Shown: positions 23,628 to 62,052 of the stretch, piece after piece
Layout: each line of letters starts with the position of its first letter
Position numbering within the stretch: the first letter of the stretch is position 1
Assembly (NCBI GenBank): GCA_016786565.1
Contig: JAEUVY010000031.1
Location: 62,001 to 126,000 of the forward strand
From: Flavipsychrobacter sp.
GTDB taxonomy: Bacteria > Bacteroidota > Bacteroidia > Chitinophagales > Chitinophagaceae
Direction: 5' to 3'
Length of the DNA stretch: 64,000 nucleotides
The notes under the pieces: generated by a model
What the model was told of the DNA's origin: nothing
The model's input: the letters and a program-made list of their open reading frames with translations, nothing else
The model's database searches: none
Translations under genes and position numbers: made by a program

Positions 23628-23702
23628 GGTCTCATAGTTCAATGGATAGAATAGAAGTTTCCTAAACTTTTGATACAGGTTCGATTCCTGTTGAGACTAC
23701 CA
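23628..23702 (+). tRNA. tRNA-Arg (CCU anticodon)
   Basis: A 75-base cloverleaf with encoded CCA. The acceptor arm GGTCTCA pairs with TGAGACT (one G-U pair), followed by A and CCA. The anticodon loop reads TTCCTAA between AAGT-type stems, giving anticodon CCU. The T arm is CAGG, TTCGATT, CCTG. It marks the left edge of the island. The recombinase gene on the opposite strand ends inside it. Confidence 0.93.
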
Positions 23703-25266
23703 AAGAGGGGAACTGCAAATTTTCATTGCAGTTCCCCTTATTATTTTCCCCCAAAAACCTTGATACACGTACAAAGTAACGGAATGCTTCATTTACTTTT
23801 GGGGTTCGACACTCGTCTTTTTTGCGATTGTAGTACACACCCTCTGGAAATAGCAAATATTGAAGTTCCTGTTTATCGTTGTAATCGGCGGAATCCCATT
23901 CTGGCGCGAGTTTCGAGGATGCTCGGAAGGCTGTATCTACGTAAATATCAAGGTTCGACACCTTATTTCCGTATTTTGCCCTTTCCTTCTCAATTTGCTT
24001 CCTCTCATCAAGGAATTTGGCTCTGAATTTGTCGAACATATCCTTGGTTATTTCCTCCAGCACATACCGTTCTTCCAGTCGTTCCAGCTTCTTATCTATT
24101 TCAGATAACTGTCCTTCAATGTTATCAATACTTTCCTCATTGCGCTCATTCAGCGTGTTGTAATCAGCTATCATTTGCTCTCGGATAAGGTACTGCATTG
24201 CTTCATCAAATTCAAGCGTGTATTCCACCAGTTTTTCAGCAAAGCGGTCATTTAATGTCTCCGCCCTCATATTGCATCTACAGCCTCTGGTGTTGCACTT
24301 GTAATAATACTTCTGGTTTTTATAAGCCTTGTAAGCTCTTAAAAACTCTCCACAATCATCGCATTTATAAAAACGCTTTAAGGGAATATCTTCATTTTCT
24401 GGATTGATACGATACCCTTGTTTGTTCTCAGAAAGTACGTCATTGGCTGCGAGGAACATTTCCTTTGATACCATTTTCTCATGGTTGCCCTCTATCACCT
24501 GCCCTTCTAAAGCTGTATGAACCATTAGCCCACAATAGAATGGATTACGGAAGAATGCCGACATTCTTTGATTGCTGATCTTTAGTCCTTGCGCCGCCAG
24601 CCTTTGAATTATCTCCTCACTGGAAACCTTTTCATTCACTTTCCAATGAAACGCTTTCCTGAGCAGTTTGCCGTCCCTATTAAGCATAATAGACCGTTTA
24701 CCATTGGTCTTGATGATGTCATAACCAATAGGTGGTGCGGTAGGCCATTCACCGCGAAGCAGCATCTCTTTAACACCTGCCATGCATTTCTCCCTGCGTT
24801 GCTGGTTCTCATACTCGCTAAAGATGAACTGTATGTTCTGTTGCAAGCTGCCACTTGCAGTTGATGCATCTGTAGGCTGTGTTACGGAACAAACCACTAT
24901 ACCCTGCTTCTTTAGCTGCTCGGCTATATAGATTGCGTTTGCACCGGAACGGCTGAACCTATCCACACTGTACACGATAATATACGAAATTTTCTCCCTG
25001 CTTTTCTTCAGAAAAGAGAGCATGTTATTAAACTGTTTTCTCTCATCTGTCTTAGCACTTTCAAATGTGCCGCCATAGTAACCCATGATTTGCAGGTTGC
25101 CTTTTTTAGCAAATATTTCACAAGCCTTCTTCTGTGTATCAAGGCTTAGGTTATTGTCTGCTTGCTCTTTGGTAGAAACGCGGGTGTAAATAACGCAGTT
25201 ACTGCCTTTAGCTTTTGTTTTATGTGAGCCTTTGGCAAAGGTTTTAAAGAGTGTGATGTCGCTCAT
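23662..25266 (-). CDS. Large serine recombinase (site-specific integrase)
   Basis: 534 residues. The N-terminal resolvase catalytic domain has its nucleophile Ser31 in VIYTRVSTKEQ and further active-site residues in YSVDRFSRSG. A Recombinase domain follows (PPIGYDI and ISNQRMSAFFRNPFYCGLMVH), then a zinc ribbon with FYKCDDCGEF and YYYKCNTRGCRCN. After that comes a coiled coil (about residues 375-440, LSEIDKKLERLEERY). This is the standard large-serine-integrase layout. The last ~13 codons (SLVVSTGIEPVSKV) are read antisense from the tRNA-Arg gene, and the stop lies 34 bases inside it. The C-terminus therefore depends on the integrated state. The start overlaps the stop of the small upstream gene (ATGA), so translation is coupled. 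It should integrate and excise this island. Confidence 0.93.
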   Translation of the reverse strand: MSDITLFKTFAKGSHKTKAKGSNCVIYTRVSTKEQADNNLSLDTQKKACEIFAKKGNLQIMGYYGGTFESAKTDERKQFNNMLSFLKKSREKISYIIVYSVDRFSRSGANAIYIAEQLKKQGIVVCSVTQPTDASTASGSLQQNIQFIFSEYENQQRREKCMAGVKEMLLRGEWPTAPPIGYDIIKTNGKRSIMLNRDGKLLRKAFHWKVNEKVSSEEIIQRLAAQGLKISNQRMSAFFRNPFYCGLMVHTALEGQVIEGNHEKMVSKEMFLAANDVLSENKQGYRINPENEDIPLKRFYKCDDCGEFLRAYKAYKNQKYYYKCNTRGCRCNMRAETLNDRFAEKLVEYTLEFDEAMQYLIREQMIADYNTLNERNEESIDNIEGQLSEIDKKLERLEERYVLEEITKDMFDKFRAKFLDERKQIEKERAKYGNKVSNLDIYVDTAFRASSKLAPEWDSADYNDKQELQYLLFPEGVYYNRKKDECRTPKVNEAFRYFVRVSRFLGENNKGNCNENLQFPSLVVSTGIEPVSKV

Positions 25267-35452: not shown

Positions 35453-36310
35453 TTAACTTTTGGTATTTAATTTACTTTTCAGCAGATTCTTCCTGAAAAT
35501 GGACGGACTTTTCCCGGTGTGGGTTTTGAAGATGCGGGAAAAATGACTTTGATCTGAGAACCCTGTGAGGTACGCAATTTCAGTCAGCGCATATTCGGTC
35601 GAGTGCATAAGTTGTATCGCTCGTTCGATACGCATTTTTCGGATATGCTCCCCAAACGATAGATCATCGAAATACTTTGAGAATTCCCTTGATAAATAGG
35701 ATGGGTGTACATCTAAATTTTTAGATATATCCTTCAGGCTTAGGGTAAGGTTTGCGTCTAACTGATCTTGGATGATCTCTTTTATCTGTTTGACCCATGC
35801 GGGCTTGCCCTTTGTACCCTTTTCCTTTAAAAACTGCTGGTAAATGTCCATTAGCAGGTTCTCAAAAGGACTTTGGGTATGCCTCTGATGTTGCAGGTGC
35901 TTTGCCCAGCTATACAGGGCATCATATATCACCATGCCTGCCTCAAGCAGTTGATGGTCGTCCTTAATATTATGGGCAAGCCCGGCAGAAATAGCCCAAA
36001 GTCCGCTCGACTGGCTGGCAATATCAAGCCTGTCGGTATCGGCACCCCTGACGATCACAGCAATTGTTAGTATTGCCGGGTCAGTAATATTATATTTTTC
36101 TACAAAATAGTCGAATGTGCAGCGGTCTTCATAGTGGGTGAACTCAACATCAGGAATATCGAAGGGAGTAGCATTCAGTTCCGCAGCCTTAGTTTTCACT
36201 TCATGGAAAGGCACATAAATGATTTCAGCCTCTTTATCAATAAATCGCCTGATAAGCCAGGGGCAGGCTATTCTGTCAATTTTGGGATGCTCACGGGTTA
36301 TCCACTTCAT
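35453..36310 (-). CDS. ChrB-domain / AraC-type HTH fusion regulator
   Basis: 285 residues. The N-terminal ~140 residues are a ChrB C-terminal-type domain (PKIDRIACPWLIRRFIDKEA, FTHYEDRCTFDYFVEKY, then RGADTDRLDIASQSSGLWAI). That domain is known from the chromate-responsive regulator ChrB and related chromate-resistance proteins. Residues ~175-280 are an AraC-family double helix-turn-helix (LSLKDISKNLDVHPSYLSREF, then LTEIAYLTGFSDQSHFSRIF). The usual ChrB DNA-binding N-terminus is absent, so AraC helices seem to have replaced it. It should sense chromate or a related oxyanion or redox state and control the operon that follows (RND pump, SOD, barrel). A -7 box lies 28 nt before the ATG. The sensing ligand is inferred from the domain name only. 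Confidence 0.85.
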   Translation of the reverse strand: MKWITREHPKIDRIACPWLIRRFIDKEAEIIYVPFHEVKTKAAELNATPFDIPDVEFTHYEDRCTFDYFVEKYNITDPAILTIAVIVRGADTDRLDIASQSSGLWAISAGLAHNIKDDHQLLEAGMVIYDALYSWAKHLQHQRHTQSPFENLLMDIYQQFLKEKGTKGKPAWVKQIKEIIQDQLDANLTLSLKDISKNLDVHPSYLSREFSKYFDDLSFGEHIRKMRIERAIQLMHSTEYALTEIAYLTGFSDQSHFSRIFKTHTGKSPSIFRKNLLKSKLNTKS

Positions 36311-41116: not shown

Positions 41117-41263
41117 ATGCCCGCTAAAAAAACGAAACCAAGACGTCCATTGGCATTTACAATTATCAGATATTTCATGCTGGTAATTTGTATATCCGTT
41201 GTCCTTTTAGCAATAGTCGGGTTACTAATGAAATATTATAAACTATCTAAACACATTTTTTAA
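41117..41263 (+). CDS. 48-residue single-pass membrane peptide coupled to czcA
   Basis: From the ATG at 41117: MPAKKTKPRRPLAFTIIRYF, then a hydrophobic helix (MLVICISVVLLAIVGLLM) and a basic tail (KYYKLSKHIF). It has a positive N-terminus and one transmembrane helix of about 20 residues. Its stop shares a base with the czcA start (TAATG), so it is translated together with the pump. Small membrane peptides are known to join RND pumps elsewhere (for example AcrZ with AcrB), so a pump-accessory role is a reasonable but unproven idea. An upstream TTG start would add 20 less plausible residues. Confidence 0.6.
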   Translation: MPAKKTKPRRPLAFTIIRYFMLVICISVVLLAIVGLLMKYYKLSKHIF

Positions 41264-44200
41264 TGTTAGACAATATTATCCGCTTTTCCATCAGGAATAA
41301 GCTGATCATTGGCATTCTCACGCTAATGTTGATTGTATGGGGTATTTACTCCCTTGCTCAACTTCCGGTTGATGCCTTACCGGACATAACAAATAATCAG
41401 GTTCAGATTATTACAAAAGCACCTACCCTTGCGGCTCAGGAAGTTGAACAGTTCATTACCTACCCTGTTGAGCGTGCAATGTCTAATCTGCCCGAGATAA
41501 CTGAAATGCGCTCCATGTCAAGGTTTGGACTAAGTGTTATTACGGTTGTTTTTAAAGAATCAACCAATATTTACTTTGCAAGGCAGCTAATATCCGAAAA
41601 GCTGAAAGAGGCAGAGGAGAACATACCCAAAGGAGTTGGGAAACCGGAACTTGCGCCTGTCACAACCGGATTGGGTGAAATATACCAGTATATAATTCAC
41701 CCAAAAAAAGGAAGTGAATCAAAGTATTCTGCAATGGACTTACGGACAATGCAGGACTGGATAGTTTCCCGCCAGTTATATGGCATTGCTGGAGTGGCTG
41801 AAGTAACCGCATTTGGGGGTATAACAAAGCAATACGAAGTGACATTATCTCCTGAAAGGCTAAAAGCGATGAATGTCACTATACCCGAAGTATTCAACGC
41901 CCTTGAAAAAAATAACGAAAACACGGGAGGCGCATATATCGAAAAGAAACCCAATGCCTACTTTATACGTGGTGTCGGCTTAATGGGAAACATAACTGAT
42001 ATTGAGAATACGCTTGTTAAGCAACAAGGGAATGGCATTCCCTTATTCATTAAGGACATTGCAACCGTTAAGTTAGGTTCACCTCCTCGTTACGGTGCTA
42101 TGACCTACAACGGAGAAAAGGAAGTCGTTGGAGGTATCGTATTGATGTTGAAAGGGGCTAACAGCGCAGAAGTTGTCGAAAGGGTAAAAGAAAGGATGCT
42201 TATCATCCAAAAATCATTACCTAACGATGTAACAATTGAAGCTTTTTTAGACCGGACAAACCTTATTGACAGGGCTATCGGAACTGTAAAAAAGAACTTA
42301 ATAGAGGGTGCGCTTATAGTCATATTTGTGTTGGTTGTATTTCTCGGCAATTTAAGGGCAGGTTTAATTGTTGCTTCTGCCATCCCGTTATCATTGCTTT
42401 TTGCACTTGGAATGATGAATCTGTTTGGCGTAAGTGCAAACCTTATGTCATTGGGGGCTATTGATTTCGGGTTAATAGTAGATGGTGCAGTAATAATTGT
42501 CGAAGCGGTAATGCACCATTTAGCAATGCGAAAGACAACGGAGAGGTTATCACAATCACAAATGGATGACGAGGTTTTTCATTCAGCATCACAAATAAGA
42601 AGCAGTGCCGCATTCGGGGAAATAATTATCCTGATAGTCTATATCCCAATTCTTTCACTTGTCGGTATAGAGGGAAAAATGTTCCACCCTATGGCAGAAA
42701 CAGTCTCGTTTGCGATATTAGGCGCACTGATCTTGTCTCTTACTTATATCCCTATGGTTTCAGCACTATTCTTATCGAAAAATCCAAAGACTAAACCTAC
42801 ACTTTCGGACAGAATGATGACATTCTTGCAGAAGAAATATGTGCCAATCCTTAAAGCGGCAATAAAATTAAAAGCAGTTATCATAATATCAGCTTTCGCC
42901 TTGGTGATAATTGCCGTTTTGATTTTCAACCGATTAGGTGGGGAGTTTATCCCTCAACTGGAGGAAGGAGATTATGCCGTTGAATTTGTACTACCTCAAG
43001 GCGCATCCCTGTCTCAGACTATTGAGACAGTAATGCTGGCAGAACGGATGATTAAGATGTACCCGGAGGTAAAGATGGTAGTCGGGAAAACGGGTAGTGC
43101 AGACGTGGCGACGGATCCGATGCCTCCACAGGCTTCAGATCTTATGGTCATCCTGAAAGACAAGAGTGAATGGAGAAAAGGAAAAACCTTTTATGGTTTG
43201 TCGGATGAGATTAGAAAGACGTTGGAGGACATTCCCGGCGTGATCGCAGAACCGAGCCAGCCCATCCAGATGAGATTTAATGAACTAATGACAGGTATTA
43301 AACAGGACGTTGCAGTTAAGATATTTGGCGAAAGTATGGATAGCCTGAATTCCATTGCACAAGAAGTGTCAAATGCGATTAAATCCATACCCGGAATTAC
43401 ACAACCGCAGGTTGAAAAAGTAAGCGGCTTGCCACAGATAACTATAAAATATGACAGGGCAAGAATGGCTAATTATGGATTGACAATAGCAGATGTCAAT
43501 CAGATCATTAGTGCTGCTTTCGCCGGATACAAATCGGGTGTTATTTATGAGAATGAACGAAAGTTTGATTTAGTTGTGAGACTTGACAGCGTAAACCGAA
43601 ATTCAATAGATAATGTAAGTGATCTCTTTATACCTATAAAAGGTGGCAACCAAATACCGCTTTCGCAGGTTGCAAGTGTGGGGTATGAAACAGGGCCAAC
43701 ACAAATAAGCAGGGAAGATGGCAGGAGGCGAATTGTAGTCAGCTTCAACGTAAGCGGAAGAGATGTACGCAGTGTTGTAGAGGATGTACAAAAAGCACTA
43801 ACTAACAAAGTGAAATTACCAATCGGCTACTACTTTACTTATGGAGGTACATTCGAGAACCTGCAAAAGGCTTCTGCCCGTTTAATGATAGCGGTTCCGA
43901 TTGCTTTGCTTTTGATTTTCGCATTGCTCTATTTTACACTTAACTCATTAAAGCAAGCGACTTTAATATTTACTGCCATTCCAATGTCAGCTATAGGAGG
44001 CGTTTTTGCCCTGCTAATGCGTGGAATGCCGTTTTCCATATCAGCAGGTGTTGGTTTTATTGCGCTCTTTGGTGTAGCCGTGCTTAATGGTATTGTATTG
44101 ATCGGAACATTCAACCAATTAGCCAAAGAAGGTTATGACGATATTGTGGCACGAGTAATAGAGGGAGCAAAAATAAGGCTTCGGCCAGTGCTTATGACAG

Positions 44201-45594
44201 CCACTGTAGCCTCATTGGGCTTTTTACCAATGGCACTATCAACAGGAGCAGGGGCCGAAGTTCAAAAGCCATTGGCTACTGTAGTAATAGGTGGTTTATT
44301 GACAGCAACTGTTTTAACCCTTATTGTGTTACCCTTACTGTATATCCTGTTCAACCAGCGCAGAAAGAAAAGCACCATTGCTATTTCCGCTGTAATGTTG
44401 TTCATTCTGTTTTCAAGTCAGGCAAATGCACAAACTACAACAGTACAAACAGAAAAAGTCCGCATATCGTTTGATGAAGCCTATGAGATAGCACTCAGGA
44501 ATAATTTACAACTGCGGAGCAGTGATATTGCAGTGAGCCGTTCCCAAATATTAACAGGCACATCGTTTGACATTCCCAAAACTGGCTTCTTTATAGAAAA
44601 TGAAGACATCAGGCCAACGGACAAACAGGGAATATTAAAAGCAGGTGTTTCTCAAAGTATTAGCTGGCCTGGGATATATGCAGCGCAAAAGAAACTATTG
44701 CAGCAACAGGTAAAATCACTGGAATATACAAAGCAGGTCAGGGTCTTAGAAATTAAACGCAACGTACAAACCGCCTATTACACCCTTTGGTATTATTACA
44801 ACAAACAAGCGTTATGGCAGGAATTAGATAGTATCTACCTTGAATCAGCTACTATGGCCAGACTACGGGTAAGAACAGGAGAAAGTGCAGGTTTAGACAG
44901 TATTGCCGCTAATGCAAAGAGCGGAGAAATTAATAATCAGTTCAAAGCAATTCAGAATGATATTGAAATGCAGCAGGCGGCATTAAATGTCTTGCTAAAC
45001 ACAGACACTCTTTATCTGCCGGAAAATTCCAAACTTGGAAAAATAAAAACGGATATTAACATAGCACCTGCTAATACGCATCCTTTATTACTTGTACAGC
45101 AACAGGCAGTAAATGTTGCCCAGGCTGATGTCAGAGTTGCAAGGTTAGGTTCTTTGCCGGATTTTTCAGGAAGATTTTTCTCTCAGAGTTTATATGGTTT
45201 AGATAATCCATATTCCGGTTTTTCTTTTACAGTAGGCGTACCATTGTTTGGGTCAAGTAATTATAAAAACAAGATCAGGGCAGCAAGGCTGGAGCAGGAC
45301 TACCGGCAAACAATGTTTGATTATGAAGAGCAATCCTTAAATAGTCAGGTACAGCAAGCAATTCAAACATTGGATAAGAGTAGGCAAATGTTGCAGTATT
45401 ATGAAACAACAGGTCTAAAACAAGCCGGAGACATTATAAAGGCTGCAAGCCTTTCCTACAAAGGCGGTGAGATCAGCTTTGCAGAACTTTCTCAGTATCT
45501 AAATCAGGCACTTGATATTCGCAAAAACTATTTGGATATTTTAAATCAATACAATCAGAACGTCATTCAACTTAATTATTTTTTAAATCGCTAA
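41263..45594 (+). CDS. czcA: CzcA/CusA heavy-metal RND pump fused to a CzcC/TolC-type domain
   Basis: 1443 residues. Residues 1 to about 1035 form a heavy-metal-efflux RND permease with the diagnostic TM4 segment AIDFGLIVDGAVIIVEA (D401 and D407), the N-terminal LPVDALPDITNNQVQI and 12 transmembrane helices. A second signal-peptide-like stretch follows at about 1034-1056 (KSTIAISAVMLFILFSSQANAQ). Then comes a ~390-residue outer-membrane efflux protein domain (ISFDEAYEIALRNNLQLRSSD, and later LSYKGGEISFAELSQYLNQA). One polypeptide thus carries an inner-membrane pump and an outer-membrane channel, which would have to be separated by signal peptidase at NAQ. Likely substrates are divalent metals (Zn, Cd, Co or Cu). 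The start overlaps the small membrane peptide, and the adaptor gene begins two bases after the stop. Confidence 0.93.
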   Translation: MLDNIIRFSIRNKLIIGILTLMLIVWGIYSLAQLPVDALPDITNNQVQIITKAPTLAAQEVEQFITYPVERAMSNLPEITEMRSMSRFGLSVITVVFKESTNIYFARQLISEKLKEAEENIPKGVGKPELAPVTTGLGEIYQYIIHPKKGSESKYSAMDLRTMQDWIVSRQLYGIAGVAEVTAFGGITKQYEVTLSPERLKAMNVTIPEVFNALEKNNENTGGAYIEKKPNAYFIRGVGLMGNITDIENTLVKQQGNGIPLFIKDIATVKLGSPPRYGAMTYNGEKEVVGGIVLMLKGANSAEVVERVKERMLIIQKSLPNDVTIEAFLDRTNLIDRAIGTVKKNLIEGALIVIFVLVVFLGNLRAGLIVASAIPLSLLFALGMMNLFGVSANLMSLGAIDFGLIVDGAVIIVEAVMHHLAMRKTTERLSQSQMDDEVFHSASQIRSSAAFGEIIILIVYIPILSLVGIEGKMFHPMAETVSFAILGALILSLTYIPMVSALFLSKNPKTKPTLSDRMMTFLQKKYVPILKAAIKLKAVIIISAFALVIIAVLIFNRLGGEFIPQLEEGDYAVEFVLPQGASLSQTIETVMLAERMIKMYPEVKMVVGKTGSADVATDPMPPQASDLMVILKDKSEWRKGKTFYGLSDEIRKTLEDIPGVIAEPSQPIQMRFNELMTGIKQDVAVKIFGESMDSLNSIAQEVSNAIKSIPGITQPQVEKVSGLPQITIKYDRARMANYGLTIADVNQIISAAFAGYKSGVIYENERKFDLVVRLDSVNRNSIDNVSDLFIPIKGGNQIPLSQVASVGYETGPTQISREDGRRRIVVSFNVSGRDVRSVVEDVQKALTNKVKLPIGYYFTYGGTFENLQKASARLMIAVPIALLLIFALLYFTLNSLKQATLIFTAIPMSAIGGVFALLMRGMPFSISAGVGFIALFGVAVLNGIVLIGTFNQLAKEGYDDIVARVIEGAKIRLRPVLMTATVASLGFLPMALSTGAGAEVQKPLATVVIGGLLTATVLTLIVLPLLYILFNQRRKKSTIAISAVMLFILFSSQANAQTTTVQTEKVRISFDEAYEIALRNNLQLRSSDIAVSRSQILTGTSFDIPKTGFFIENEDIRPTDKQGILKAGVSQSISWPGIYAAQKKLLQQQVKSLEYTKQVRVLEIKRNVQTAYYTLWYYYNKQALWQELDSIYLESATMARLRVRTGESAGLDSIAANAKSGEINNQFKAIQNDIEMQQAALNVLLNTDTLYLPENSKLGKIKTDINIAPANTHPLLLVQQQAVNVAQADVRVARLGSLPDFSGRFFSQSLYGLDNPYSGFSFTVGVPLFGSSNYKNKIRAARLEQDYRQTMFDYEEQSLNSQVQQAIQTLDKSRQMLQYYETTGLKQAGDIIKAASLSYKGGEISFAELSQYLNQALDIRKNYLDILNQYNQNVIQLNYFLNR

Positions 45595-55950: not shown

Positions 55951-57648
55951 TTATTGTTTCAGGATGCTGTAGACTGAAGCATTGCCATCCTGATCTACTG
56001 CCTGCAGGATGTATACTCCTTTGGCGAGTGGCGTAGTGTCGAATGAGCCACGAGCAACGTCGGACATTTCTGCAACTACTGCGCCTGTTACCGAGAGCAG
56101 TGTCACCTTCTTCATTATTTCACCGCCTTTATTGCTGAAGTTCAGCATGCCGGTTGTAGGGTTAGGGAAGATGTCCAGGTTCCTGTTGGTAGCAATACCT
56201 GTTACAGATGCTGTGCTTGTAGGTAATGGTATCATGGCGCCACCTGATGCCAGTGCTACCCACAGACCAAATGCAGGGCCGTTGCTGTTGGTGGCAGGCG
56301 ACAGGAATCCTGAAGCCACTACTGTGATAGCGTCGCCATCCAGACCAAGTGTGGTGAGCGGCGCGCTGTACCTTTTGAGGATTGTAGTTGCAGCAGCGTT
56401 GAGCAGGTCGAGCGTGTAGTTGCTTGTTTTTACTTTCACATATCCACCGCTTGCAAAGTCGCCGAACGCAATGTCGTTCACAAGTGTTGCAGATCCCGCA
56501 TTTACGTCAACCGCAGGCGCGTCTGTGCTGCCGTGGATAACCAGCAGATCAGTGCTGTCTGATGCTGATGTTGAGATCTCGCGGCCCTGGTCGTATATGC
56601 TGAGACGGAAAGGAGCCGCTGCCGCAGATGGCGTATAGCCGGTAGGGCTGACAAGGCCGTTTGCCACTATGATGTAGCGCTTGTCGGATGTGAGTGTGGT
56701 GGTGAGGCTGTAGATAGTGTCGGCCACACTTGTACTGTTCTTAGGAGCTACACCCAGCGTTACCGGTACACCTACCGGTGCGTTTACGAATTGAGATGCC
56801 GTGCGGAAAGCGAAGTTGTCGAGCAGCAGTGTGCTGTTCAGGTACACGTCTACGCTGTCGGCAATGGCATCGGCACAGTTGTGGATGACCTGTACCCTTG
56901 CAGTTTCATCGAGCGGAATGAGCGCACCACCCGCAGCCGGAGCGGCCCACAAGCCGAAAGCAGGTCCGCCGCTGTTTACGGCAGGGTTCAGGAAGCCGGA
57001 TGCGACTATAGTAGCGGATGCTCCTGTGAGGCTGAGTGTAGAAAGAGGCGCTGAATATCTTTTTACTACTGTGCCGGTAGCGGTTGTTACGTCTATGATA
57101 TAATTTGCTGTAGGGAGAGACAGATAGCCGGTGCTGTTGAAGTCGCCGAACGGAATGTCATTTACGAGTACAGAGTTGCCGGCGCGTACATCTACCACAG
57201 GTGCGTCGGTGGAGCCATGCACCACGAGCAGGTCTGTGTTGGTTGATACAGATGCTGTTTCGCGGGCAGCGTCATAAACCGACAGGCGGAAAGGGACTGA
57301 GGACGATGCAGGGCTGTATCCCATAGCGCTTTCAATACCGTTTGCTACGAGAATGTATTTTTTTGCGGGGTCGAGTGTCACAGATATGCTGTAGAATGTA
57401 TCTGCCACACTTGTGCTGTTTTTGGGTGCTACAGACAATCTTATGGGCGTTCCGGCGGCAGGTGCGTCAATGAAGCCTGTTGCGGTGCGGAAGGCGAAGT
57501 TGTCGAGCAGGATCCCGTTGTCAAGATACACATCCACTGAGTCGGCAGCGAGGTCGGCGCAGTTATGGATAACCTGTACACGTGCTGTTTGTGCGTTTGC
57601 AGCGATAGAAGCTACGAGAGCTGATGCTAATAGAAGTTGTTTTTTCAT
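55951..57648 (-). CDS. Surface protein with two DUF4397 domains and a T9SS type A tag
   Basis: 565 residues from the ATG at 57648, which begins a proper signal peptide (MKKQLLLASALVASIAANAQ); an upstream start would add 30 non-signal residues and precede the -7 box. Two tandem ~235-residue repeats each start ARVQVIHNCAD, continue through SVDVYLDN and LVVHGSTDAPVVDVRAG, and end GPAFGLWAAPA. Each is a DUF4397 module (a beta-sandwich of unknown function). The last ~80 residues are a type A sorting domain (LDIFPNPTTGMLNFSNKG, ending in YILQAVDQDG). The two repeats are very similar, so the gene grew by internal duplication. The product should be a cell-surface or secreted protein. Confidence 0.87.
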   Translation of the reverse strand: MKKQLLLASALVASIAANAQTARVQVIHNCADLAADSVDVYLDNGILLDNFAFRTATGFIDAPAAGTPIRLSVAPKNSTSVADTFYSISVTLDPAKKYILVANGIESAMGYSPASSSVPFRLSVYDAARETASVSTNTDLLVVHGSTDAPVVDVRAGNSVLVNDIPFGDFNSTGYLSLPTANYIIDVTTATGTVVKRYSAPLSTLSLTGASATIVASGFLNPAVNSGGPAFGLWAAPAAGGALIPLDETARVQVIHNCADAIADSVDVYLNSTLLLDNFAFRTASQFVNAPVGVPVTLGVAPKNSTSVADTIYSLTTTLTSDKRYIIVANGLVSPTGYTPSAAAAPFRLSIYDQGREISTSASDSTDLLVIHGSTDAPAVDVNAGSATLVNDIAFGDFASGGYVKVKTSNYTLDLLNAAATTILKRYSAPLTTLGLDGDAITVVASGFLSPATNSNGPAFGLWVALASGGAMIPLPTSTASVTGIATNRNLDIFPNPTTGMLNFSNKGGEIMKKVTLLSVTGAVVAEMSDVARGSFDTTPLAKGVYILQAVDQDGNASVYSILKQ

Positions 57649-57976
57649 TTTGTTTAGGTTTTCGTCAAAAGTATTAAACAAAATGTCGTCACATTGTTTG
57701 TTTGGTTTGTTTAACAAATGTTTGTGAATGTTAAACAAAAAATATTAATCGGAGATTAATCAAAGTGCTGTTTTGGACACGAAAAGTGTCTTCGAGATGG
57801 TGTGAATCGGGGCTAATCTAAAAATATAAACCATAAATAAAACAGTATTTCTGCTGTTTTTTGGCAAATAGTGGCAGGGTACATTTGTTCAGCAGGTTGT
57901 GATAAATGTGCCCATGACCGGCTGTAGTTTATCTGAAACAATATTTCATCACCAATAAAAACAAGTTTCCGGAAAC
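57649..57976. promoter_or_regulatory. Divergent intergenic region with operator-like palindrome
   Basis: It holds the -7 box TACTTTTG (57666-57673, minus strand, 17 nt before the DUF4397 ATG). It also holds a 10-bp inverted repeat, TTTGTTTAAC (57706-57715) and GTTAAACAAA (57730-57739), with a related ATTAAACAAA at 57674. The side facing the catalase-like gene shows no clear box. Confidence 0.5.
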
Positions 57977-59005
57977 ATGAAAAGTAAAAATGAAAAGGCC
58001 GCTGCGTCAGGGCCTGATTGCAGCACTGATCCGATAGGGTCGCTGAAGCAGATGTTCATCAACACTACGATGGGCACAAGGGTGAAAGCGGGTCAATGCC
58101 CCGTAAGGAGGGCTGTGTTCCTGAAGCCACATGGAGTGGTTAAGGCTGAGTTTATTGTATTGCCCGGTCTACCGGCGAAGTATCGCGTGGGTATTTTCGC
58201 TCACGAGAAGTTTGAGGCGTGGATGCGCTTCTCAAGCGATACAGTGCCGGGCAATCCCGACATGAAGACGACAGTTGGTGTAGGCATCAAATTGTTTGGT
58301 GTGCCCGGCAAGAAGCTGCTGTCGCAGGATGAGGATGCAACAACAGCAGATTTTTTGTTGCAGAACATGAATGTATTTTTTGTAGACACGGCAAAAGACA
58401 TGTGCGAGTTTACAAAGGCAGGTGTAGTGGATCATGATTATGACAAATACCTGAAAGCCCACCCTGTAACAAAGAAAATTCTTGACGAAATGCAGAAGGT
58501 GGTGCCGAGTTGCCTCACTACACCGTATTGGAGCGGTTTGCCCTATTCATTTGGGAAGGAGTATGTAAAATATAAGCTTGTTCCTGTGGCGCCTCCGTTT
58601 GGTGCACCCGCTCAGCAAAATGGCCCCGACTATCTGGCGGCAGATATGCAGGCTAGGTTGAGCATGGGTGAGGCACAGTTTCAGTTTATGGTGCAGTTCA
58701 GGACGCATCCGGACAAGATGCCGCTTGACAAGGCCACTGTAGCCTGGGACGAACAGTTGTCGCCTCCGGTGCCTTTGGCTACCATAGTCATCAGGCAGCA
58801 GGATATAAACGCGCAGGGACAGGCGTCTTATGGTGAGAACCTTTCTTTCAATCCGTGGCGGACTTTGCAGGAGCATATGCCGCAAGGCAGCATCAGTGAG
58901 GCGCGCAAGGTAGTGTACCAGGCCGGTGCCGATTACAGGCGTTATCTGAACGGTGAGCCTGCGGTGGAACCCGATGCTCCCCGACAATTAAATCAACAAC
59001 CCTGA
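57977..59005 (+). CDS. Catalase-family heme protein (small, SrpA-like)
   Basis: 342 residues, shorter than true catalases (~480). Catalase-fold features are the distal His52 region (VFLKPHGVVKAEFIV), RFSSDTVPGNPDMKTTVGVG, DFLLQNMNVFFVDTAKDM and the proximal end NPWRTLQEHMPQGSISEARK. Such short catalase-like proteins include peroxidases and allene-oxide-synthase-like enzymes, and some lack high catalase activity. It starts an apparent operon with LodA-like and LodB-like genes, 21 nt before the former. The LodA-like enzyme should produce hydrogen peroxide, so this protein may remove it or use it as oxidant. No signal peptide is seen. Confidence 0.85.
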   Translation: MKSKNEKAAASGPDCSTDPIGSLKQMFINTTMGTRVKAGQCPVRRAVFLKPHGVVKAEFIVLPGLPAKYRVGIFAHEKFEAWMRFSSDTVPGNPDMKTTVGVGIKLFGVPGKKLLSQDEDATTADFLLQNMNVFFVDTAKDMCEFTKAGVVDHDYDKYLKAHPVTKKILDEMQKVVPSCLTTPYWSGLPYSFGKEYVKYKLVPVAPPFGAPAQQNGPDYLAADMQARLSMGEAQFQFMVQFRTHPDKMPLDKATVAWDEQLSPPVPLATIVIRQQDINAQGQASYGENLSFNPWRTLQEHMPQGSISEARKVVYQAGADYRRYLNGEPAVEPDAPRQLNQQP

Positions 59006-59026
59006 TAACTATAAAAATGTAAAACC

Positions 59027-60952
59027 ATGGACGTAAAAAAAATAAAGAAGGTGGCTATATATCCGGCAATTGGTATTGCCCGAATAGGCAACTCTCCGGA
59101 GTATTTTATGGCATCAGAGATACCGGGCAAAGCACCGGATCCTGTGGGTGGCTATAAAGACGGAAATAATCTGTTCAAAAAGCAGGTACCGTTATTCAGG
59201 ATATACGCGTTGGATAAGGATAACAATCCGATAGGAGAGATAAAACAAGGCATAAAGGGCCTGAAAGTGAAAATAGATTGGAGGGTACATATAGCGAACA
59301 GGAAGGCCGCATGGTACCAGTTCAATAATGCGCTGGACCTGGGTAAGAACGCCATAAGCAGCACGCACAGGAATGGAGGAGTAAGTGGAGACGCCCGCAA
59401 GGATCTGGTCATAGATCCGGGAGTGCGAACAATAAGCGGTACAAACAAGCAGGGGGCTGAGTATCAGTTTGATTCGGGGGCTTTCTTTGGTAAGAAAGTA
59501 TCTCTGGGAGAGGTGCGCACAGACAGTCATGGCCGACTGATGGTGTTTGGTGGTGACGGCAAGAGCGCTTCGCGAACAGGTGTGCCAGCCATCACGTTTG
59601 CTAATAATGACGGGTGGCATGATGATATATCTGACGGAACAGTACGTGCGACAGTGACCATAGATGGGGTGCAGCTTGAGGCTACGCCGGCAATGGTAGT
59701 TTGTACGCCTCCGAATTTTGGTCCTGGTCTGTTTTCGGTTGTTACGATGTATGATGTGGTATATGACCTTTACGTCAGGGAGCGTGTACTGGAAGCACCG
59801 AAGGAGATCACCTTCTGGAAGCACATATACCCAATTCTTCAGCGAATGACCACTGCGCAATGGGTGAACGAAGGGTTCTTTATGATCTTCGGGACAAATT
59901 CGCCAAGCGACTTCACCAATCCTGAGTACATAGCGAAGCTGAATAATCCGGCAAAGGAATTCAAGCATTATCGCGAGAGTGTGTTCAAGTGGTTCCGAAA
60001 CACTGCTTCTGCAGCTTACGAGCCAACACTGATACCTCCCTACTATGGCGATCTTTTCGGGGACTATGAAAATCAGCCGCATGTGGACCTTTCTGTTACA
60101 GCTACTCAATACGCAATGCTGCAACGGTGGGCTAAGGGCGATTTCACAACGGGTGAACCCGGGCAGGATATTCCGTTTGAACAGTTGGACCCGAAGGCGC
60201 AGACAGAATCACTATTGAAAGTGGGACTGGAGGAGTGTCTTGGAGGTCCATTCCATCCGGGCATTGAAATAACCTGGCCGTTCAGGCATATGAGTATGTG
60301 GCAGGAGCCCTTCAGGCTGAAGGTGCTGCCGGAAGGGCAAGCGGTAGCTGATGATTACGGGCCGATCCTGACGCCTGAGATAGCACTGGGCAAGGGCGGA
60401 CCATTGGATGGAAGCGGACCGGGGTCCATTACCCGCTGGTTGGGGGTACCCTGGCAAACCGATGAAGCAAGTTGCTTATCAGGTTATGATCCGAAATTAT
60501 ATCTGCCGTTACCATCCTTCTGGGCGGCACGGGTGCCCAACTATGTGTTGAGTATGGACAGTTACAAACGTGCAAGTGTGGACCAATTGAACACGGGGCA
60601 ACGCTTGAAACATTTTAGCTACAGGGTGAATTGGCTTCGCGACTTCAGTACGTCTTATGTAGGTCGTATCAATGACATGATAGCCAAATGGCATGAGCTG
60701 GGTGTAATATGCAGGCATACCACACCCGCCGGGGAGGCGAACGGATTTTTGCCAACCGAGTGGTGGGTGGAGACGCACAGAGTGGGGCCCGAGGGTGGAG
60801 ATCCTTCCTTCAGGCAGGTGCTGCGTGCAGAGAAACATGAAGTGCATCCTGTGCCTGCCGGAAGGTCGTTGCTTGGTGCAACTCCGGAAGAATTGGAACA
60901 AGAAGAAAAAGGCGAATGGAAGAGTCAACCGGTACGCAGGCACGAAATGTAG
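59027..60952 (+). CDS. LodA/GoxA-family CTQ-dependent amino-acid oxidase
   Basis: 641 residues. It starts with the family hallmark (VAIYPAIGIARIGNSPEYFM) and continues with PGVRTISGTNKQGAEY, FGGDGKSASRTGVPAITFAN and NNDGWHDDISDGTVRATVTI. The cofactor residues are likely Cys404 (LEECLGGPFHPGIEITWPFR) and Trp476 (VPWQTDEASC), which should form cysteine tryptophylquinone after modification by the flavoprotein encoded next. Known members oxidise L-lysine at the epsilon-amine (LodA) or glycine (GoxA), releasing peroxide and ammonia. Sequence does not fix the substrate here. It overlaps the next gene by 37 bases. Confidence 0.85.
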   Translation: MDVKKIKKVAIYPAIGIARIGNSPEYFMASEIPGKAPDPVGGYKDGNNLFKKQVPLFRIYALDKDNNPIGEIKQGIKGLKVKIDWRVHIANRKAAWYQFNNALDLGKNAISSTHRNGGVSGDARKDLVIDPGVRTISGTNKQGAEYQFDSGAFFGKKVSLGEVRTDSHGRLMVFGGDGKSASRTGVPAITFANNDGWHDDISDGTVRATVTIDGVQLEATPAMVVCTPPNFGPGLFSVVTMYDVVYDLYVRERVLEAPKEITFWKHIYPILQRMTTAQWVNEGFFMIFGTNSPSDFTNPEYIAKLNNPAKEFKHYRESVFKWFRNTASAAYEPTLIPPYYGDLFGDYENQPHVDLSVTATQYAMLQRWAKGDFTTGEPGQDIPFEQLDPKAQTESLLKVGLEECLGGPFHPGIEITWPFRHMSMWQEPFRLKVLPEGQAVADDYGPILTPEIALGKGGPLDGSGPGSITRWLGVPWQTDEASCLSGYDPKLYLPLPSFWAARVPNYVLSMDSYKRASVDQLNTGQRLKHFSYRVNWLRDFSTSYVGRINDMIAKWHELGVICRHTTPAGEANGFLPTEWWVETHRVGPEGGDPSFRQVLRAEKHEVHPVPAGRSLLGATPEELEQEEKGEWKSQPVRRHEM

Positions 60953-62052
60953 TAAAAGGTGCAGAACTACCTGTGGTGATAGCGGGTGGCGGTCCGGCAG
61001 GGGCCGCCACTGCTATTGCATTGTCGGGTATGGGATACAAGTCTGTGATAGTTGATCCCGGAACGCCTGTCGCTGTCAAGGCTGGAGAGTCGCTCCCGCC
61101 CAATATCCTGCATTTGTTGCAACAACTGGATATACAACATCTTTTGCAGGATGCCGCACATCAGATCAATTTGGGGAACACTGTTGTGTGGGGAAGCGAT
61201 GAGGTGCTGGATAGGGTTTTTCTGGCCGAGCCATGGGGCAACGGATGGCATCTGAACAGACTGGTGTTCGAGCAACAGCTGAAATCTGAAGCTGAGCGCC
61301 GGGGGGCTGTATGGATGGACGGAGGCATTGTGACAGGCGTTGAGGGAAAGCAGGGCGCAATGCGTGTGTCGGTGCGTAGTGATAGTGGGCGGGCTGACCA
61401 GAAGCTGGACGCATGTTTTGTAGTTGATGCCTCAGGCAGGCACAGTAGCGTGTTGCGGTCGTTGGGTGTAAGCCGGCACAGGCTTGACGATATAACGGCT
61501 GTTTGCGCGTTCGTGACCGCACCCGGGCATCGGCTGCAGTCTACAACGTTTGTAGAGGCGGTGCAGGATGGTTGGTGGTATGCGGCTCCGTTAGGTGGAG
61601 ACAGAGTAGTCTTGAATCTGATGACTGATATAGGGTTGAGGCCCAAGACGGGAGAGGGGAAGTCTGATATGCTGTTGAGGCGGCTGAAGCAAACCATGTA
61701 TCTGCATGAGCGCCTTGGTAACTTTGCCGGGATGGGGTTTGAGGAGGTTTTTGCGAAACCCGCTGGCACCAGTTGTGCGGACAGAATATCCGGCGATGGT
61801 TGGCTGGCAGTAGGCGATGCCGCCTGTACTTATGATCCGCTTAGTTCCTACGGTATCACATCAGCTATTGGCGGCGGCATATATGCTGCCTATGCCATTT
61901 CTGATGCGCTGTCGGGAAACAGCCATGCGCTGGATGCGTATAACCATGTGCAGCAGCAAACGTTCAATAACTGCGTTGCTATGTTAGCGCACCAGTACCG
62001 GCAGGAGTCCCGTTTCAGCGAAAAGGTTTTCTGGCAGCGGCGTTATTTATAG
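60916..62052 (+). CDS. LodB-like FAD-dependent maturase of the CTQ oxidase
   Basis: 378 residues. The N-terminal FAD Rossmann motif is PVVIAGGGPAGAATAIAL, then VIVDPGTPVAVKAGESLPPN. A second FAD motif reads GDGWLAVGDAACTYDPLSSY, then GITSAIGGG, typical of the tryptophan-halogenase/LodB group. In known systems LodB makes the cysteine tryptophylquinone cofactor of LodA. The gene overlaps the LodA-like gene by 37 bases, implying coupled synthesis. No halogenase WxWxIP motif is seen, which fits a LodB role over halogenation. Confidence 0.85.
   Translation: MEESTGTQARNVVKGAELPVVIAGGGPAGAATAIALSGMGYKSVIVDPGTPVAVKAGESLPPNILHLLQQLDIQHLLQDAAHQINLGNTVVWGSDEVLDRVFLAEPWGNGWHLNRLVFEQQLKSEAERRGAVWMDGGIVTGVEGKQGAMRVSVRSDSGRADQKLDACFVVDASGRHSSVLRSLGVSRHRLDDITAVCAFVTAPGHRLQSTTFVEAVQDGWWYAAPLGGDRVVLNLMTDIGLRPKTGEGKSDMLLRRLKQTMYLHERLGNFAGMGFEEVFAKPAGTSCADRISGDGWLAVGDAACTYDPLSSYGITSAIGGGIYAAYAISDALSGNSHALDAYNHVQQQTFNNCVAMLAHQYRQESRFSEKVFWQRRYL

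Follow-up and report, generated by a model that had tools for sequence, protein, structure and literature searches.

A putative catalase-fold heme protein encoded directly upstream of a LodA/GoxA-type quinoprotein oxidase and its flavoprotein maturase in Flavipsychrobacter sp.

The question raised by this locus is why a gene for a small catalase-like protein should stand directly before the genes of a LodA-type quinoprotein oxidase, which would release hydrogen peroxide, and its flavoprotein maturase. The features concerned, together with other observations in the window (the whole stretch of 64 000 nucleotides that was analysed), are listed in Table 1. The ORF coordinates confirm the row of three genes, with a short gap and then an overlap, that had been described in the earlier note.

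Table 1. Features of the locus and of its surroundings, in positions of the window
Feature	Position	Strand	Length	Remarks
-7-like box TACATTTG	57880..57887	+		weak match to TAnnTTTG
catL, catalase-fold heme protein (putative)	57977..59005	+	342 aa	
Intergenic gap	59006..59026	+	21 nt	from the sequence
lodA/goxA-like CTQ quinoprotein oxidase gene	59027..60952	+	641 aa	
lodB/goxB-like flavoprotein maturase gene	60916..62052	+	378 aa	37-nt overlap with lodA
DUF4397 protein gene, divergent neighbour of catL	55951-57738	-		two similar halves, type IX secretion tail
Low-GC stretch	23628-54000			GC about 0.40 vs 0.49
tRNA-Arg(CCT)	23628-23702			start of the low-GC stretch
Serine recombinase gene	23662-25266	-		overlaps the tRNA
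ChrB_C domain joined to AraC-type DNA-binding domain	35453-36310			
AcrB-type RND pump with outer-membrane efflux domain	41263-45594		1443 aa	single ORF

After the TGA of catL the gap reads TAA CTA TAA AAA TGT AAA ACC, and catL and lodA lie in the same frame; with the TGA counted, three in-frame stops are present at the junction. A fusion broken by a single nonsense mutation was considered and rejected because of these three stops and because the length of the catL-lodA gap is divisible by three at no more than four of the eight separate-gene loci (start codons called mechanically). On the basis of their spacing, the three genes would be co-transcribed. The -7 promoter box of Bacteroidota has the consensus TAnnTTTG, and no properly spaced -33 box was found for TACATTTG upstream of catL. 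The earlier observation that none of the three proteins carries an evident export signal held on inspection of the sequences, since LodA enters its conserved start motif at residue 11 and LodB has its FAD motif near residue 20. The conserved unit consists of just catL, lodA and lodB, the flanks varying among loci.

The source genome (Chitinophagaceae; 3.82 Mb, 133 contigs) contains one LodA_N match. The low-GC stretch of the window is probably an integrated island. It carries two sets of RND efflux genes together with a P-type ATPase, ParDE and an SMR gene; a second tRNA-Arg(CCT) end was looked for in the window and not found.

Assignment of the oxidase to the LodA type was borne out by matches of the 641-aa protein to both LodA_N (238.2 bits) and LodA_C (120.9 bits), each above the Pfam cut-off. 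The scores with the models of the named enzymes were below their cut-offs (GoxA, NF038173: 470.8 bits, cut-off 750; lysine 6-oxidase LodA, NF038172: 189.6 bits, cut-off 600). As judged from these scores, the protein belongs to the LodA/GoxA family and is neither of the two named enzymes. The CTQ cofactor had previously been placed at Cys404/Trp476; these residues are conserved, yet they are not the cofactor pair, because alignment to the solved GoxA and LodA gives Cys483/Trp499, which is the predicted CTQ site. Cys483 corresponds to GoxA C682 and LodA C516, Trp499 to GoxA W697 and LodA W581, and the conserved aspartate Asp479 to GoxA D678 and LodA D512, the LodA numbering having been reached via a group I-like relative. 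C516 and W581 are named as the cofactor residues of LodA in the main text of a 2015 survey (PMC4417212), and the aspartate close to the cofactor of GoxA is given as Asp678 (PMC7876137). Cys483 and Asp479 were present in all 101 aligned LodA rows. Trp499 was found in 95 of them; five of the remaining rows have a gap there and one has Tyr, all six being distant rows in which the loop alignment is unsure. His410 aligns with GoxA H583 and LodA C448, which points to a GoxA-like site rather than a lysine-oxidase site.

That a flavin maturase is encoded beside the oxidase was also upheld. The 378-aa protein matches FAD_binding_3 (62.7 bits), in agreement with an FAD-dependent fold, and its gene lies directly 3' of lodA. 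Its scores with the LodB/GoxB models NF038171 and NF038174 (232.6 and 232.8 bits) do not reach the curated cut-off of 400; GoxB/LodB are the nearest named families, followed by QhpG.

The 342-aa CatL gave no match to Pfam and NCBIfam models at E 1e-3, so that membership in the monofunctional catalases (PF00199) was not found at that threshold. Its catalase-like nature, proposed in the earlier note, was nevertheless supported by a phmmer match to the catalase-related protein of PDB 3e4w (E 5e-6) and by structural matches of a predicted model (8 alignment rows, pLDDT 74, pTM 0.76) to 3e4y (Z 21.4 over 265 residues), the coral AOS-LOX fusion (3dy5, Z 19.6) and catalases (Z about 19). These structural matches, which extend across the core, point to a catalase fold. 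The elements of a catalase-type heme site are present (H52, N130 and Arg-x-x-x-Tyr at R310/Y314); by comparison with catalases, His52, Ser86 and Asn130 are presumably distal and Arg310 and Tyr314 proximal. All five residues are invariant in the 22 LodA-linked rows of the alignment, and the distal His is found in 19 of 24 solo catalase-type rows. Ser87, Gln129 and Phe145 are invariant in the 22 linked rows and variable in the solo rows. CatL is taken to bind heme. Its heme-site residues are no proof of catalase activity, since the heme residues of catalases are also retained in coral cAOS, which cannot scavenge H2O2 (PMC5617202).

Linkage of a catalase-type gene to lodAB was found to recur and takes one of three forms: the gene stands next to lodA on its upstream side (8 loci, this one among them), is fused to it (13 rows) or lies downstream of lodB (1). 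The separate-gene loci are those of the window, genome G372, Paraflavitalea pollutisoli, Pedobacter sp. L105, Chitinophaga sp. sic0106, C. silvatica, C. skermanii and Flavobacterium supellecticarium; because the heme gene precedes lodA with a gap of 9-27 nt in all eight, the adjacency goes beyond chance. Within the family of the source organism, LodA matches were obtained in 14 of 394 genomes (15 loci), four of these loci having a separate catalase-type gene, seven a fusion and four neither (one at a contig edge). Among the best 80 of 505 confirmed LodA relatives in named genomes, six had a separate gene, one a fusion and 73 no partner; in 45 genomes, drawn from 46 of those best 80 loci, any match to the domain was seen in 11, and in seven of these it was the linked gene itself.

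The domain was matched in 15 of 296 Bacteroidota genomes, the six strong matches (580+ bits) all being LodA-linked (five fusions and the window), and in 48 of 398 Pseudomonadota genomes, the two matches above 370 bits both being LodA-linked. When the flanks were inspected in 20 of these 48 genomes, one fusion, one lodA-lodB-catalase gene order and 18 loci without LodA were found; the order lodA-lodB-heme gene thus occurs in one proteobacterium. At locus L198 (5001-6908), a catalase-type protein encoded 3' of lodB has an extra C-terminal part of ~290 residues. Nor was LodA found in the flanks of nine other weak catalase-type loci (Bacteroidota set and LodA-locus genomes), so that in all 27 solo loci had none within the stretch inspected. 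Catalase-related domains also occur inside non-LodA proteins of 965 aa (L189, 4109-7006) and 900 aa (L208, 10688-13390). A heme partner dedicated to the LodA-type oxidase, as had been suggested, is supported in that members of the same subfamily are adjacent, fused or downstream, and the solo relatives examined are unlinked.

Trees were calculated after exclusion of four duplicate loci (L026-L029) and, for the catalase domain, of solo rows below 110 bits. In the catalase-domain tree, all 22 LodA-linked rows are united in a single clade, apart from 24 solo rows (100/100). In the LodA tree (100 rows, calculated without L043, which was included in a later 38-row LodA tree), the fused rows form one clade (99) and the separate-gene rows belong to another, together with many partnerless rows. 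AU tests were performed with subsets of the rows (28 of 100 for LodA, 26 of 46 for the catalase domain): a single LodA clade of the nine separate-gene and relic rows was rejected (p-AU 0.0019), and a single catalase-domain clade of the fused rows was not (p-AU 0.195). Tandem pairs of lodAB operons with two distant LodA types were observed in Tateyamaria and a relative (L098, L101, L102, L104).

The window LodA falls in a clade with LodA #1 of Kordia algicida, apart from the fused (group III) clade. The second LodA proteins of K. algicida and of genome G088 share 62% identity. The other LodA of G088 is, like one in Tenacibaculum ovolyticum, a fusion, with 1061 aa; from this length G088 is taken to be that species. 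In the main text of the survey, LodA proteins of K. algicida are listed in groups II and IVB, those of T. ovolyticum in groups II and IIIA, and all catalase-LodA fusions in group III (PMC4417212). Since the second proteins pair with each other and the remaining one of G088 is the fusion, we infer from this sequence comparison that Kordia LodA #1, and hence the clade of the window LodA, would be group IVB. With the fusions of the survey all in group III and the window LodA in group IV by this reasoning, the partnership would span two LodA groups.

Loss of the partner is documented in C. niastensis, in which 56 residues of the heme gene, with 54-55% identity to the heme genes of two Chitinophaga relatives, survive as a relic just upstream of an intact lodAB with the LodA cofactor residues retained; it was the only relic among 78 partnerless loci screened (two duplicates included). 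A relic beside an intact lodAB implies that the heme partner is useful and dispensable for the persistence of lodAB. No match to this LodA was obtained in the eight other genomes shown as the same genus, and close relatives occur in Pedobacter and Flavobacterium, a distribution that suggests lateral gain.

The explanation preferred, with moderate confidence, is an intracellular GoxA-type oxidase with its own dedicated peroxide-consuming heme partner, encoded in a three-gene operon. LodB would, in the way known for LodB/GoxB, introduce oxygen into pre-hydroxylated Trp499 and finish the link to Cys483, giving the CTQ of LodA. With its GoxA-type active site, LodA would oxidise its substrate, a primary amine or an amino acid, and convert O2 into H2O2. 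The heme protein would act on the released peroxide where it is produced, as the fused versions would in one chain; complex formation between CatL and LodA, like catalysis, is presumed. As LodA has no export signal, the peroxide would arise inside the cell, and a catalase-fold partner would most simply remove it there. Dismutation, which we consider more likely than peroxidation, would guard LodA, LodB and the cytoplasm and would give back part of the O2. For general peroxide the genome encodes a KatG-type peroxidase (772-aa frame), and no match to PF00199 was found in it.

In a model of the fused Frankia protein (pTM 0.59), residues 368-390 between the domains have pLDDT < 50; with this low-confidence linker the domain arrangement is not fixed, and no channel was deduced from it. 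LodA columns that split partnered from partnerless rows gave no signal (seven, against four, six and five in relabelled controls). Absence of the partner from 73 of the 80 named loci (best 80 of 505) and its loss in C. niastensis count against the preferred reading and make the partner non-essential; the KatG available for general peroxide counts against it as well.

The peroxide might instead be used: as a peroxidase or peroxygenase, the heme protein would let the H2O2 from LodA oxidise a second substrate, perhaps the product of LodA itself. This is possible but doubtful. CatL has the size of the small catalase cores 3e4y and cAOS, its clade has conserved residues of its own (the Ser87, Gln129 and Phe145 given above), and in the coral protein a catalase-fold domain N-terminal to a peroxide-forming domain acts on the hydroperoxide of the latter (PMC5617202); however, no gene related to a second substrate is conserved beside the three genes, and the CatL residues outside the heme site gave no link to a substrate. 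In its boldest form, which appears unlikely, this would be a two-protein peroxygenase cascade in trans, in which H2O2 (and perhaps the oxidised product) from LodA passes into a second oxidation by the catalase-fold enzyme, recruited into two LodA groups in fused and separate form. Such chemistry may be undescribed for either family in the literature covered.

Secretion of an antimicrobial oxidase like that of Marinomonas, with the heme protein shielding the producer, would follow the known peroxide-producing antimicrobial enzymes of the LodA family (PMC4417212, PMC3948610). It is improbable here, as none of the three proteins has a signal peptide and the oxidase resembles GoxA more than LodA in its His410 site and in its family scores; the antimicrobial role mentioned in the earlier note is thus left without support. 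The heme domain is physically fused to LodA in other genomes, and di-heme MauG is a precedent in tryptophylquinone biogenesis (PMC7876137), so that assistance in oxidising the Trp/Cys pair of LodA was considered as well. The modifying enzymes of the characterised systems are LodB and GoxB (PMC4417212, PMC7876137), most LodA loci manage without the domain (73 of the best 80 named loci of 505), and C. niastensis retains the cofactor residues with a mere relic of the heme gene; a part in cofactor formation is for these reasons even less probable. Chance adjacency without any functional link would agree with the lack of a partner at most LodA loci, but recurrence in three arrangements and a LodA-specific clade already made it very unlikely, and its probability is negligible.

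The statement that the pairing lies outside the best known lodAB operon proved true of the operon; the domain pairing itself was published in 2015 in the form of an N-terminal pfam00199/cd08152 (y4iL-like) domain on group III LodA-like proteins (PMC4417212, Table 3). These fusions have the same domain order as the catL-lodA pair, which is collinear throughout with the fused relatives found here, and the catalase-type domains of these relatives belong to the same clade as CatL. They differ from the pair, with its two ORFs and in-frame stops between them, in being single chains and in the position of their LodA in the fused clade. With GoxA/GoxB of Marinomonas and Pseudoalteromonas luteoviolacea this locus shares the CTQ residues, the His at GoxA H583 and a GoxB-like maturase, but its oxidase scores below the GoxA cut-off, is shorter, lacks a visible export signal and has a catalase-type partner. 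The family domains and cofactor residues are common to lysine 6-oxidase LodA/LodB, from which the locus differs in the score of its oxidase with that model and in having His410 in place of Cys448.

The best structural match of CatL, the 33-kDa protein of M. avium paratuberculosis (3e4w, 3e4y), is likewise a minimal catalase core, but is only 20-22% identical and has no oxidase partner that was noticed. In the coral AOS-LOX fusion (3dy5) a catalase-fold domain is also N-terminal to a peroxide-forming oxidase domain; there the partner is a lipoxygenase and the substrate a fatty-acid hydroperoxide. No adjacent unfused catalase gene at lodAB was found in the literature searched, including the passages on catalase in PMC4417212. 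In principle the pairing is already known from the catalase-type fusion to LodA-like proteins of group III; novelty seems to lie in its form (a separate heme gene 9-27 nt upstream) and its place (a lodA assigned by inference to group IV).

The separate-gene form permits the oxidase to be made with or without its heme partner, which the fusions do not. Separate genes could therefore reveal if the catalase-fold partner of a quinoprotein oxidase gives protection against peroxide or uses it chemically, and could help to assign a substrate to the LodA group in which the window protein is placed, for which no characterised member is given in the main text of the 2015 survey (PMC4417212).
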